From Cryptosporangium phraense (GTDB taxonomy: Bacteria; Actinomycetota; Actinomycetes; Mycobacteriales; Cryptosporangiaceae), in NCBI RefSeq assembly GCF_006912135.1, contig NZ_VIRS01000003.1, positions 248,001-312,000 of the forward strand: 64,000 nucleotides of DNA. Direction: 5' to 3'. A model generated the notes under the pieces. It saw only the letters and a list, made by a program, of their open reading frames with translations. It was not told the origin of the DNA and ran no database searches. Position 1 is the stretch's first letter, and every line of letters starts with the position of its first letter. Position numbers and translations under genes: made by a program. Below are positions 3,706 to 54,781 of the stretch, in pieces.

Positions 3706-4296
3706 CTAGGGCGCCGACGGGGCTCGGAACGCGCGGATCGTGAGTGCTGCGAAGCGTCGGGATGCGGCGACGCGGGCTGCTGGGGTGTTCGCGCGGATGC
3801 CGCCGCCGGCCATGAGCATGAGGGTCACGTCGTTCACCGTGACGTCGGTGCGGAGGCGGCCGGTCGCCTTCGCCCGGCGTACGAGTTCGGCCGCGGAGGC
3901 CAGCGAGGAGGCTCGGTTCGCCGTGAGGTCCAGTGCGCGCGGGAACCGGGCCTTGACCGCCGCGGCGAAGCCGTTGTCGCGTGCTTGCAGGTCGCAGAGT
4001 CGCGCGACCGTCCGGCAGAAGCCGCGCCAGGGATCGGGGTCGGCGAGCCCGTCGTCCAGGGCAGATCGCCAGGCCCGCAAATCGTCGGCGAACACCTCCG
4101 CGACCAGGAGCTGTTTGGTCGGGAAATGACGGTAGACGGTCGACGTTCCGGTTCCCGCGCGTCGAGCGATCTCCCGGATCGGTACGTCCAGGCCCTGTGC
4201 GCCCAGTGCCGAGCGGGCCGCATGAATGATGCGCTCGTGGTTCTCCCGGGCGTCGTCGCGCGGGCTGCGGGACAAACGAGCGGTCACCGCTCTCAC
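3706..4296 (-). CDS. TetR family transcriptional regulator
   Basis: 196 residues from GTG 4296 (a second GTG lies at 4287). The HTH is [20 protein letters not shown], about residues 36-55, followed by a C-terminal domain of the type seen in SbtR-like regulators ([14 protein letters not shown]). The frame stays open to 4581, but that extension is antisense to the methyltransferase and is not used. The gene is divergent from the methyltransferase with only ~40 bp between starts, so both promoters overlap and autoregulation plus control of the methyltransferase is likely. No clear operator palindrome was found in the gap. Confidence 0.85.
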
Positions 4297-4336
4297 ATTA
4301 GTGAAGCGGCCCGGGACGCTGGCTACGGTCCGGTGT

Positions 4337-5257
4337 ATGACTTCTACCAGGCCTGACTCGGACACCTGGGACCTCGCGACCAGCGTCGGAGCGACCGCGA
4401 CGATGGCCGCCGCGGCCCGGGCGATCGCGACGCGCGCGGATCGTTCGCTCATCGACGATCCGTTCGCCGAACCGCTCGTCCGGTCGGTCGGCATCGATCT
4501 GCTCACGCGGCTGGCGACCGGCGAACTTCCCCCCGACGAGCTGGTCGGGTCGGCGGCGATCGACGGAGCCCAGATCCGCACCCGGTTCTACGACGAGTTC
4601 TTCCTCGACGCGACGACGGCGGGCATCGATCAGGCCGTCATCCTGGCGTCCGGACTCGACTCCCGCGCCTACCGGCTGGCCTGGCCGGCGGACGCCGTCG
4701 TGTTCGAGGTCGACCAGCCGCAGGTCATCGACTTCAAGACCCGGGTCCTGAGCGAACTGGGCGCCGCACCGACCGCCGACCGGCGGGCCGTCGCGGCCGA
4801 TCTGCGAGACGACTGGCCGGCCGCGCTGCGTGCCGCCGGATTCGACCCGGCCCGGCCGACCGCGTGGAGCGCCGAAGGGCTGCTCAGCTACCTGCCGCCC
4901 CCAGCGCAGGATCGTCTGCTGGACCTGGTCACCGAGCTCAGTGCGCCGGGCAGCCGGGTGGCCACCGAAAGCCGGCCCGCTCCGCTACCGGACGAAGAGG
5001 CCACCACGAAGGCGGGACTGCGCCGCATTTCCGAGCGCTGGCGCGCGCACGGGTTCGATCTCGATCACGCGCGCCTGCGCTATTTCGGGGAGCGCAACGA
5101 AGCTGCTCGGTACCTCGCCGACTGCGGCTGGACGCTGAGCGCGATCACCGTCCGAGACCTGCTCGCCGCCAACGGCCTTCCGCCGTTCCTCGACGACGAC
5201 CTGCGGATGGGCGACGTGGTCTACGTCAGCGGCGTCCTCGATCAGATGACGACGTAG
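4337..5257 (+). CDS. Class I SAM-dependent methyltransferase, TIGR00027/LCM family
   Basis: 306 residues from ATG 4337. The [11 protein letters not shown] and [11 protein letters not shown] segments, followed by the Y-D-x-F-F box and the [11 protein letters not shown] motif I, are the signature of the actinobacterial putative O-methyltransferase family related to leucine carboxyl methyltransferases. [11 protein letters not shown] is the acidic post-I motif that binds the SAM ribose and [12 protein letters not shown] is the family's conserved motif. Mycobacteria carry many copies, mostly of unknown substrate. Divergent from a TetR repressor. The frame extends upstream to 4226, but that part is antisense to the TetR gene. 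Confidence 0.92.
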
Positions 5258-50765: not shown

Positions 50766-51776
50766 TCAGATCGTCGGCGTCCAGCCGAGGGCCGGGCCGA
50801 GCTTCGTCGCGACGTCGGTGAGGATCTGGACGTAGTCCTCGTGCTCGAAGCTGAACGGCAGCGCGAACGCGACCTCGTCGACCTGCTGGAACGCCGGGTC
50901 GGCGTAGAGCTGGGCGGCGATCTCGTCGGAGGACCCGATCAGGTCGCGGGCGAACATCATCCGGGCCGGGCCCTGCGGGGTGGAGGTGCGCGGGGTCCGG
51001 GCGGCCACGTACGCCTCGTACTTCGTCCGCTGCTCGGCCGAGGCTCCGTCGGTGGGGATGACGACGAGGCCCTGCGAGACCCGTCCGTCGGGCCGGGCCT
51101 TCCGGTAGGCCCGGACGTGGGACGCCTGGACCTCGGCGAAGTCTTCGGAATCCTCGGCCCGGACCACGTTGCTGGTCAGGAAGTTCATGTCGTGTGCGGC
51201 CGCCCATTCGGCCGAGCGGGTGCTGCCGCCGCCGTACCACATCCGGCCGGACAGCCCGGGGGAGTGCGGCTCGACCCGCTTGGAGAACACCTCGAAGCCC
51301 TGGGTGCCCTCGAAGTCGCTGACCTGCTCGCCGCGGATCGCGGACAGCAGCCGCGACACCCGCGTGTAGCTGAAGTCCTCGACGTCGGCCGTGTCGGGGT
51401 ACAGCGCGTCCTTGACGTTCTCCCACCGCATCGGCGGCCCGACGCTCAGCCCGGGGTTGAGCCGGCCGCCGGACAGGATGTCGACGGTCGCCAGGTCCTC
51501 GGCCAGCCGCAGCGGGTTCTCCCAGCCCAGCGGGATCACCGCGGTGCCGAGCGCGATCCGGCTGGTGCGCTGGGACGCGGCGGCCAGCACCGCGACCGGC
51601 GACGAGATGCCGTACTGCAGGTGCCGGTGGCGCACCCAGGCGCTGTCGAACCCGAGCTCCTCGCCGAGCTGGATGATCTCGAGCGTGGACTCGTGCCCGG
51701 GTCGTGGGTTCGCCCCGTCGAACAGGCCGATCGTCAGAAAGCCGAGCTTACGGAGCGGTTCGGTGGGGTTTGGCAC
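50766..51776 (-). CDS. LLM-class flavin-dependent oxidoreductase
   Basis: 336 residues from GTG 51776, with GAAGGAG 6 nt upstream. LGFLTIGLFDGANPRPG opens the protein; HRHLQYGISSPVAVLAAASQRTSRIALGTAVIPLG (pieces: LQYGISSPVAVLAAA, LGTAVIPLG) and GLSVGPP are the conserved flavin region of bacterial luciferase-like enzymes. Cotranscribed with the SigJ-type factor. The TetR fragment lies directly upstream, about 60 bp away, and may once have regulated it. Confidence 0.9.
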   Translation of the reverse strand: MPNPTEPLRKLGFLTIGLFDGANPRPGHESTLEIIQLGEELGFDSAWVRHRHLQYGISSPVAVLAAASQRTSRIALGTAVIPLGWENPLRLAEDLATVDILSGGRLNPGLSVGPPMRWENVKDALYPDTADVEDFSYTRVSRLLSAIRGEQVSDFEGTQGFEVFSKRVEPHSPGLSGRMWYGGGSTRSAEWAAAHDMNFLTSNVVRAEDSEDFAEVQASHVRAYRKARPDGRVSQGLVVIPTDGASAEQRTKYEAYVAARTPRTSTPQGPARMMFARDLIGSSDEIAAQLYADPAFQQVDEVAFALPFSFEHEDYVQILTDVATKLGPALGWTPTI

Positions 51777-51835
51777 GCGCTTCTCCTTCGGTTCGGCTCT
51801 ATTCTGCCTCCCGTGCTGATCGCCGATCCGACGCG

Positions 51836-52285
51836 TCAGATCCCGGCGGCGAACGTCCGGAGCTCGGCCAGGGCCTCGGGGCCGGTCGGCGCCTGCTCCG
51901 GGTCGACCAGCCACTGCAGCATGAGCCCGCTCAACAGCGCGAGCGGCACCGAGCCCCCCAGGCCGGCGCGGCCCTCCCGCTGACCGCGGGCCAGGTGTGC
52001 GCGGACCTCGGCCGATCGCTCGGCCTGCACCGCGGCCTCGAGCTGCGCGACCCACAGCTGCCGGTGCGTGGTGAACGTCGCGATCAGGGCCTGCCACCGC
52101 TCCTCGGCGGTGCCGTCCGGCGTCCGGGCGGCCAGCTCCGCCGACAGCTCCTCGACCGCGTCCACGAGCGCGATCGTGAGCAGTGCGTCCTTGGAGCCGA
52201 AGTGGTAACCGATCGCCGCGTGGTTGACTCCGGCCGCCGCCGCGATGTCCCGGACCGTCGTGCGGGCCCAGCCGCGCTCGATCAG
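51836..52285 (-). pseudogene. TetR regulator with N terminus missing
   Basis: About 150 codons. Homology begins at LIERGWARTTVRDIAAAAGV (quoted as LIERGW and DIAAAAGVNHAAIGYHFGSK), i.e. inside the first helices of TetR_N; the usual 15-20 residues before this, with start codon and promoter, are absent. The rest, including the ligand domain to AELRTFAAGI, is intact. Upstream of 52285 the frame merges with antisense DNA of the monooxygenase gene. The gene would have regulated the adjacent monooxygenase or LLM gene. Confidence 0.7.
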
Positions 52286-53314
52286 GCCGCCGGTCCGGCG
52301 CTCGCCTGCTACTTGTCCCGGGCCGGTTACTCCGTGACGGTGGTCGAGCGCGCGGCCGCGCTGCGCGACAGCGGCTACGCGGTCGACTTCCGCGGCGACG
52401 CGGTGTCCGTGCTCGCCGAGCTCGGCATCCTCGACGAGGTCCGCGGGCACCGGACCGGGATGCGCGGCACCACCCTCGTCGACGACGACGGCGTCGCGGT
52501 GGACCAGTGGGGCCCGGACGTCTTCGGCGGCGACCTCGAGGTACCGAAACGAGCCCTGACCGCGATCCTGCACCGGCTCACCGCCGACACTGTCACCTAC
52601 ATCTTCGGCGACACGATCACCGCGCTGCGGCAGCAGGAATCGGGCGTCGCGGTCGAGTTCGCGCACCGCCCGCCGAGCAAGTTCGACCTGGTCGTCGGCG
52701 CCGACGGGATGTACTCCGCGGTCCGGGCGCTGGCGTTCGGTCCGCACGAGCGGTTCCTCCGCCACCTCGGCATGTCCGGCGCCGGCTTCAGCACCGCGAA
52801 CTTCCTCGGCCTCGACCACACCGGACTGCTCCAGCCGTCCGGGACCACGGCGGTCTACCTGTTCGGCGGTGACCCGGACGACCGGCTCACGGTCAGCCTC
52901 TCGTTCGCCACCGAGTCGCCCGAGCTCGACCGGCGTGACCGGCGCGCGCAGGAGGACGCGGTCCGGTCCGCGTTCGCCGGACGCGGCTGGGAGATCCCCC
53001 GGCTGCTCGACGCTATGTCACGGGCCGACGACTACTACTTCGCGTCGACCGGCCAGGTCGAGGTCGACCAGTGGCACCGCGGCCGCGTCGTCCTGGTCGG
53101 CGACGCCGGGTACTGCGCCGCCCCGACCAGCGGTTCGGGCACCTCGCAGGCCCTGATCGGGGCCCGGACCCTGGCCCGCGCGCTGGCCGGATCCGGCTAC
53201 GAGGACGCGTTCACGGCGTACGAGCGGCAGTTACGGCCCTTCGTCGCCCAGAACCAGGCGGCCGGCCGCGCTGCGGCGTCGATGTTCGGGGGCGGGACCG
53301 TCGGCGCGCCGTGA
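52286..53314 (+). pseudogene. FAD-dependent monooxygenase with N-terminal FAD motif truncated
   Basis: About 343 codons of a PheA/TetX-like FAD monooxygenase. The sequence starts at AGPALACYLSRAGY, which is the tail of the GxGxxG motif; the preceding beta strand and first glycines are gone. Downstream it is complete: VVERAAALRDSGYAVD, a VVGADGMYSAVR motif (about residue 135), and GDAGYCAAPTSGSGTSQAL with the usual DAG. No start codon at the native place. The missing part faces the TetR gene's missing N terminus at the same point. Confidence 0.72.
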
Positions 53315-53341
53315 GCGGGGGCGGGCCGTAGTGTCAGGGCC

Positions 53342-54781
53342 GTGAGTGCGACCTTCGCCCCGGGCGGCCCGGCCCGACGCCCGGTCACCGGGCCGGTGCG
53401 CCCGCTCCGCGCGCAGCAGATCGACTTCGGCGCGATCCGGGCCGAGCTCGGCACCCCACCCGACTTCACGCCCGAGGCACTGGCCGAGGCGGCCGCCCCG
53501 CCGGCGGCCCACGACCGGATCGACCTGACGAGCGTCCCGTTCGTCACCGTCGACCCGCCCGGCTCCAAGGACCTCGACCAGGCCCTGCACCTGGTCCGCG
53601 ACGGCGACGGCTTCCTGCTGCGCTACGCGATCGCCGACGTCGCCGCGTTCGTCCGGCCGGGCGGCGCGCTGGAGCGCGAGACCCTCGCCCGCGGCGTCAC
53701 GCTCTACCTGCCCGACGGCCGCATCCCCCTGCACCCGACCGTCCTGTCGGAGGGTGCGGCCAGCCTCCTGCCGGGCGAGACCCGGCCCGCCGTCGTCTGG
53801 ACCGTCCATCTCGACGCGGACGCCACCCCGCTGGACGTCCGGGTCGAGCGCGCCACCGTCCGGAGCATCGCGCAGCTGTCCTATCCGGAGGTGGACGCGG
53901 GCACCTGCCCGGAGGCGCTGTCCGGGCTGGCCGCGTTCGGCGCGGTGCGGGGGGCGAAGCAGATCGAGCGCGGTGGCATCGACCTCGACGTCCCCGAGCA
54001 GGAGGTCGAGCGCACCGAGGACGGCGGCTGGAATCTCGTGCTCCGGGCCCAGACCGTCGCCGAGAAGGCGAACGCCCAGGTCTCGCTGCTGACCGGCGAG
54101 TGCGCGGCCACGCTGATGCTCGGCGCGGGCGTCGGCCTGCTGCGGACGCTCCCGCCGGCCGCCCCGGAGGACGTCGACCGGCTCCGTGCGGTGGCGCCCG
54201 GGCTCGGCGTCGACTGGCCCGACGGGGCGACGCCGGGGCAGGTCGTCGCGACGCTCGACCCGACCGACCCGCGGGCGGCCGCGTTCCTCGACGTCGCGGC
54301 GACGCTGCTGCGCGGGGCCGGCTACACCGCGTTCACCGACGGACCGCCCGCGCAGGCGTTCCACGCCGGGGTCGGGGCCCCGTACGCGCACGTCACGGCC
54401 CCGCTGCGCCGGCTGGCCGACCGGTACGCGACCGAGGTCTGCCTGGCCGTGTTCACCGGCGCGCCGGTGCCGCCCTGGGTGCTCGCCGCGCTGCCCGAGT
54501 TGCCGGCCACGATGGCGTCGGCCACCCGTCGGGCCAACGAGTTCGACCGGGCCGTCGTCGACCTGACCGAGGCCGTCCTCCTCGCCGACCGGGTCGGCGA
54601 GGAGTTCGACGCGGCGGTCGTGGACGTCGCGGGCGAGGGCAAGGGCGGCACGGTCGCGCTCGACGACCCGCCGGTGCGGGCCCGCTGCGCCGGTCCCGGG
54701 CTCCACGCCGGCGAGCGGCTCCGCGTCCGACTGATCGAAGCGGAGCCGACGACGCGACGGGTCAGGTTCCAGCCGGCCTAG
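53342..54781 (+). CDS. RNB domain ribonuclease (RNase II/R-like, short form)
   Basis: 479 residues, GTG start. RNB domain from ~57: VDPPGSKDLDQAL is the catalytic Asp loop (here DLDQA, where the classical motif is DxDDA), then YAIADVAAFV, LPDGRIPLHP, PAVVWTVHL and the C-terminal APYAHVTAPLRRLADRY. It lacks obvious cold-shock domains upstream and has only a short basic N terminus (about 30 residues) and an S1-like tail. Processive 3'-5' RNA decay is expected if the Gln in the Asp loop is tolerated. Confidence 0.9.
   Translation: MSATFAPGGPARRPVTGPVRPLRAQQIDFGAIRAELGTPPDFTPEALAEAAAPPAAHDRIDLTSVPFVTVDPPGSKDLDQALHLVRDGDGFLLRYAIADVAAFVRPGGALERETLARGVTLYLPDGRIPLHPTVLSEGAASLLPGETRPAVVWTVHLDADATPLDVRVERATVRSIAQLSYPEVDAGTCPEALSGLAAFGAVRGAKQIERGGIDLDVPEQEVERTEDGGWNLVLRAQTVAEKANAQVSLLTGECAATLMLGAGVGLLRTLPPAAPEDVDRLRAVAPGLGVDWPDGATPGQVVATLDPTDPRAAAFLDVAATLLRGAGYTAFTDGPPAQAFHAGVGAPYAHVTAPLRRLADRYATEVCLAVFTGAPVPPWVLAALPELPATMASATRRANEFDRAVVDLTEAVLLADRVGEEFDAAVVDVAGEGKGGTVALDDPPVRARCAGPGLHAGERLRVRLIEAEPTTRRVRFQPA

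Follow-up and report, generated by a model that had tools for sequence, protein, structure and literature searches.

Cryptosporangium phraense very probably carries a double pseudogene that was made by one deletion in a divergently transcribed pair of genes, encoding a TetR-family regulator and an FAD-dependent monooxygenase. Orthologues of both genes are intact in a congener and in 17 other pairs, and one contiguous block is missing from the C. phraense site. The site lies in the window, by which we mean the whole 64,000-nucleotide stretch of DNA analysed here; the window is part of a 471-kb contig (C3) in a draft assembly of 8.46 Mb and 87 contigs. Four genomes of the genus were compared, namely this assembly (G000) and three congeners (G001, G002 and G003).

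The junction and the two gene remnants

The site and its flanking genes comprise the following features.

50766–51776, minus strand: luciferase-like monooxygenase gene (LLM; Pfam Bac_luciferase), with a 78% identical relative in G002
51836–52285, minus strand: TetR-family regulator remnant, 149 codons plus stop, first 14 residues missing relative to G002
52286–52288, no strand: deletion junction, 3 bases clearly of neither homology; 130 bp missing relative to G002 (by alignment and residue-by-residue comparison)
52289–53314, plus strand: FAD-dependent (class A-like) monooxygenase remnant, first 12 residues missing relative to G002
53342–54781, plus strand: RNB-domain ribonuclease gene (Pfam RNB), with 81% identical copies in three congeners

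On the minus strand, TetR homology opens at codon 52285–52283 with the residues LIERGW, the first of which corresponds to L15 of the intact G002 protein; the remnant is 81% identical to G002 TetR residues 15–163. The Pfam profile TetR_N is matched at positions 10–44 of 47 (E = 9.2e-13), so the N-terminal DNA-binding domain is incomplete, and the 14 lost residues presumably formed most of helix 1 of this helix-turn-helix (HTH) domain. On the plus strand, monooxygenase homology opens at 52289 with AGPALACYL, at residue A13 of the G002 protein. The profile FAD_binding_3 is matched at positions 12–344 of 349 (E = 1.9e-14), and over these positions the remaining fold is kept. The intact N-terminal Rossmann strand and GxGxxG-type motif are absent, homology starting at the A of AGPA; the 12 lost residues presumably comprised beta strand 1 together with the leading glycines of the FAD-binding Rossmann motif. 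The translation also contains GDAGYCAAP, which we take to be the conserved GDA region of FAD_binding_3 class A flavoprotein monooxygenases. Neither remnant body has an in-frame stop or a frameshift.

An earlier note, written from the DNA letters, had placed the start of TetR homology inside the first HTH helix at LIERGW, near 52285, and that of the monooxygenase inside GxGxxG at AGPALACYL. Direct reading and homology agree with the first placement, and the second holds as well, with homology from 52289. The note was also right that both N-termini and ancestral start sites are gone: relative to G002, TetR is short of 14 residues and the monooxygenase of 12, and the intergenic DNA is absent.

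Intact relatives and the extent of the deletion

G002 is a single-contig complete genome and carries, among the genomes searched, the closest relative of both genes. Its pair is divergent and intact, with a TetR of 165 residues (81% identical to that of the window), a monooxygenase of 340 residues (68% identical) and an intergenic region of 55 bp. DNA alignment of the window with G002 left a single contiguous 130-bp block at the junction, present in G002 only, which consists of 14 TetR codons, 12 monooxygenase codons and the whole intergenic region. A single deletion of about 100–150 bp, as the earlier note had proposed, is thus what the comparison with the intact pair returns. Because the intergenic region of G002, against which the deleted length is measured, is the shortest seen among relatives, the actual loss may exceed 130 bp and would reach about 175 bp with the usual intergenic length. 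The note's further claim, that regulator and target were disabled together, is supported in that the deletion hits both genes, whose products are presumably dead.

Eighteen loci with an intact pair were collected, each record being counted once (L051–L059, L062, L065, L066, L073, L076, L098, L099, L107 and L108). At every one of them, matches to the G002 proteins begin at residue 1 for TetR and at residues 1–5 for the monooxygenase; one locus, L056, has an assembly gap within TetR. As both N-termini are present in all 18, their lack in the window is not a difference of start choice. The intergenic DNA is likewise present in 18 of 18, and homologues with the same N-termini as the remnants, which the earlier note had named as the case against a deletion, were found in none of these pairs.

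The two genes are separated, measured to monooxygenase residue 1, by 55–98 bp at 15 of the 18 loci and by 160, 183 and 341 bp at the remaining three. Palindromes of the form CCAWWTGG occur in the intergenic region of 17 loci (one to three exact copies each, spaced 13 bp where several occur; L065 has none). A pattern of two adjacent palindromes, allowing at most 2 mismatches, was searched for in G000–G003; it was found in G002 solely at the pair and once, with 2 mismatches, in G001, and was not found in the assemblies G000 or G003. Given this distribution, the candidate operator appears to be specific to the pair, and the window's assembly no longer has it. We infer from sequence that the TetR protein probably binds the CCAWWTGG palindromes and represses both genes. 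A literature search on the motif letters CCAWWTGG returned no match, which does not show that the motif is unpublished. The intact relatives thus define a testable candidate operator, the 13-bp-spaced CCAWWTGG palindromes. At one intact locus, L052 (Streptomyces nigrescens HEK616), the region between the two genes, at about 4620–4962, contains eight tandem 26-bp repeats beginning GGGATCCA.

The following course of events is proposed. In the ancestor, a TetR regulator and an FAD monooxygenase would have been transcribed divergently from a short region, usually of 55–100 bp, with CCAWWTGG palindromes. In the window's lineage, about 130 bp would then have been deleted, from tetR codon 14 to monooxygenase codon 12. 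With this block would have gone the palindromes, the start codon of each gene and, presumably, the promoters and ribosome-binding sites of both; TetR would have lost most of helix 1, and the monooxygenase the beginning of its FAD-binding Rossmann motif. Neither is now expected to be transcribed from a promoter of its own or to encode a working protein. The site in the window has no short intergenic region with palindromic sites.

Assembly quality and open frames at the junction

A different account would be that the intergenic DNA exists in the organism and was dropped from the assembly, or lost from the library. The genome is an 87-contig draft, and in relatives the lost region holds palindromes and short direct repeats, both of which fit such an artefact. 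However, the junction lies well inside its contig (at about 300,286 of 471 kb), no N bases occur in window positions 51001–54000, the longest exact word common to both breakpoint flanks in G002 is 5 bp, and among the direct repeats listed (at least 11 bp) none has a copy at each breakpoint. A 221-bp G002 stretch spanning the gap was used as a probe for the lost DNA in G000. Among the 40 matches listed, the best was the TetR-side flank at the window locus, the second best a paralogous pair on contig C21 (98 bp, 72%), and the other 38 were at most 42 bp long; probe bases 104–151, most of the intergenic region, were covered by none of the 40. Since the rest of the assembly does not contain the lost DNA and exact words common to the flanks do not exceed 5 bp, a collapse of the assembly appears unlikely, and we give an artefact of this kind only a slim chance. 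The earlier note had named assembly collapse as a case that would overturn its reading; its signs were looked for in the assembly sequence and none was seen.

The note had also stressed that both frames remain open across the junction. This is true and carries no information: in the antisense register at the junction, stops arise only from the sense codons TTA, CTA and TCA, and these make up 0 of 1914 codons in six neighbouring genes, so that an open antisense frame is the default here. The closest upstream start codons in frame are GTGs: two lie 22 and 28 codons ahead of the monooxygenase remnant, and one lies 54 codons ahead of TetR. A promoter scan of 51700–53400 gave no site; shuffled sequence gave likewise a mean of 0.0, so the scan has no power here.

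The open frames allow one further reading, namely that the junction created working chimeric genes, each frame entering its neighbour's antisense strand from a GTG there (at 52202 or 52220 for the monooxygenase, at 52450 for TetR). Both frames are indeed open with GTG codons upstream, and internal stops are absent from both gene bodies. Yet the open frames are what the 0 of 1914 blocking codons would produce by default, the new N-termini bear no resemblance to the residues they would replace, and not one of the 18 intact pairs lacks its normal N-termini. A working chimera is therefore unlikely; we would put its chance close to nil. If either frame were annotated automatically, the gene so described would very probably be a dead one. 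As a separate observation, the monooxygenase remnant (52286–53311) has one TCA and one TTA codon, against none in the six neighbouring genes, and on account of these rare codons may be of foreign origin.

Decayed copies of the pair in other genomes

The double pseudogene in the window has counterparts elsewhere. The pair in the sister species G003 is likewise fused head to head; its TetR can be recognised only from about residue 55, and its monooxygenase, which has a further internal deletion, from about residue 20. Microtetraspora glauca (L074) shows another head-to-head truncation, with TetR from about residue 37 and the monooxygenase from about residue 35, the latter again with a further internal deletion. 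One Streptomyces genome, G1048, has a TetR that starts at residue 16, one residue off the window's break, but is fused to unrelated sequence; of the monooxygenase, only a displaced piece of 23 residues is left. A second Streptomyces genome, G928, keeps TetR residues 96–163, and a monooxygenase match was not found in the 9 kb analysed there. Nonomuraea aurantiaca has an intact pair on scaffold 48 and, on scaffold 2, a monooxygenase with a large internal deletion and no TetR match.

Including the window, this amounts to 6 decayed against 18 intact loci, in a set that came from several searches and is not an unbiased sample. Counts from the TetR searches refer to close matches whose loci were then inspected. 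In the family that includes Microbispora, Streptosporangium and Nonomuraea (297 genomes), at least 8 copies are intact and at least 1 is decayed; 392 Streptomyces genomes gave 3 intact and 2 decayed copies at a cut-off of 1e-20, at which weaker remnants may be missed. The four genomes of the window's genus gave, among the matches listed, 1 intact and 2 decayed copies; in G001, the only pair is a more distant one. Overall, the distribution of the pair is sparse; it occupies unrelated chromosomal sites in different species and has been lost repeatedly.

Of 80 monooxygenase matches listed for a sample of 118 genomes of the class, 6 begin no earlier than query residue 12; these include the window and an artefact on G000 contig C20, and since some of the others could be split matches, we derive no rate from them. 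The C20 gene was rejected as an N-terminal truncation, its N-terminus being intact with a low-complexity insert: L117 (G000:C20:109300–112400) encodes, at about 1557–2590, a paralogous FAD monooxygenase with a Gly-Pro-His-rich insert (GPGHGHGHGHGHGHDHD) in the N-terminal Rossmann region. At L118 (G113:C24:97200–99900), monooxygenase homology runs from residue 14, and a TetR match is absent from the examined stretch.

Age of the deletion

Trees were built from 30 sequences of TetR and 39 of the monooxygenase. Both place the window as sister to the intact G002, with support of 96/97 for TetR and 99/98 for the monooxygenase. Since both trees pair the window with an intact relative, the deletion appears specific to the window's lineage, and an ancestral deletion shared by the window and G003 was rejected; both statements assume that G002 never lost and regained the pair. 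The G003 deletion encloses that of the window on both sides.

Point decay of the gene bodies was compared with that in G002. The end branch of the monooxygenase is 0.35 for the window against 0.20 for G002, and its dN to two outgroups is 0.27 and 0.27 against 0.23 and 0.22. The TetR end branches (0.19 and 0.16) show no acceleration. Lineage-specific changes number 42 at codon positions 1 and 2 and 27 at position 3 in the window, and 32 and 23, respectively, in G002, without a clear difference between the two. Residues invariant in the outgroups are changed 8 times in the window's monooxygenase against 4 times in that of G002, and 3 against 4 times in TetR. The result on relaxed selection is mixed. 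With frameshifts and in-frame stops absent and little extra point decay, the deletion looks recent relative to the split from G002. As point decay is only weakly visible, it is the deletion itself that makes a loss of function of both genes probable.

Genomic context and alternative regulators

The RNB-domain gene has copies in three congeners, none of which adjoins a TetR/monooxygenase pair. The LLM and RNB genes lie near each other in G002; the interval between them holds no match to TetR or the monooxygenase, and 2.66 Mb separates it from the pair. In G003, the RNB gene is located on a different contig from the pair. Because the pair sits at unrelated sites in G000, G002 and G003, it either moves or was gained more than once. 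The same positions lend some weight to a variant of the deletion account, in which the break, either in a donor or at a different site, came before the pair reached the interval between LLM and RNB. We regard this order as unlikely, though it deserves serious consideration; the deletion is not datable against the move from sequence, and the variant would place the events in a different order, leaving the nature of the feature unchanged.

Sixteen plasmid records matched at E ≤ 1e-60, all below 60% identity, so none is a close copy of the clade, and carriage of the clade by these plasmids was rejected. A role in defence was dismissed as well: the one match, of AbiEi to TetR, was weak (E = 4e-4) and taken as chance.

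The monooxygenase occurs without a matching TetR at 10 of 25 loci (L060, L061, L063, L064 and L067–L072). Neighbours were scanned at five of these (six proteins), with a divergent LysR gene in three; among the scanned neighbours at L068, a recognised regulator was absent. The three with LysR (L060, L061 and L070, at about 3960–4890) belong to a sister clade of the monooxygenase, which suggests an exchange of regulator beside the same enzyme. In Nocardia ninae (L067:3918–4862), the gene divergent from the related monooxygenase codes for a single protein of 315 residues with GntR, TetR_N and TetR_C_1 domains.

More broadly, the divergent TetR/flavoenzyme pair could behave as one unit of gain and loss that moves between sites and is repeatedly switched off by operator-region deletions. 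Loss of the repressor by itself would leave a costly flavoenzyme without regulation, so selection would favour loss of both in a single hit. This fits the 6 decayed copies, among which no intact monooxygenase stands beside a broken TetR. Against it count the small number, a sample that was not designed for the question, and the existence of related intact monooxygenases without TetR, some with LysR instead. We consider it speculative and improbable.

Discussion

The double pseudogene in the window offers a clean example of a divergent regulator–target pair lost in one step, which is possible because the short common region is a single point of failure. The process itself is ordinary gene decay, and the case is slightly notable through the repeated breakage of the same pair. 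A literature search for deletions that fuse divergent bacterial genes head to head gave no match to the combined terms; the papers found by a search on divergent promoters and pseudogenes did not, judging from titles or abstract openings, concern such a deletion.

By sequence, the monooxygenase belongs to the same flavoprotein monooxygenase family as the tetracycline destructases Tet(50) and Tet(55) and 6-hydroxynicotinate 3-monooxygenase, and almost the whole remnant matches the corresponding PDB chains (5tue, 5tul and 8twf; E = 6e-57 to 6e-56); unlike these, it has no N-terminal FAD motif. Identification as a tetracycline destructase was rejected, with an NCBIfam NF033476 score of 219.1 bits against a cut-off of 550.

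The intact relatives resemble the divergent TetR/target pairs of actinomycetes described in a Streptomyces study (PMC3511530), in which all five of the tested divergent TetR regulators with less than 200 bp repressed their neighbour. They share the divergent TetR/enzyme layout, with intergenic regions mostly well below 200 bp and palindromes between the genes. The window differs in having neither the common region nor the two gene starts, and repression by a TetR of the window's type is presumed. The remnants also resemble young bacterial pseudogenes under deletional bias, whose removal by deletion is well known, as set out in PMC2916853: they look recently disabled, have few other lesions and were lost by deletion. 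In the window, by contrast, the deletion hits two genes at once, since their control region is common to both, and the same pair has been hit again in other genomes.
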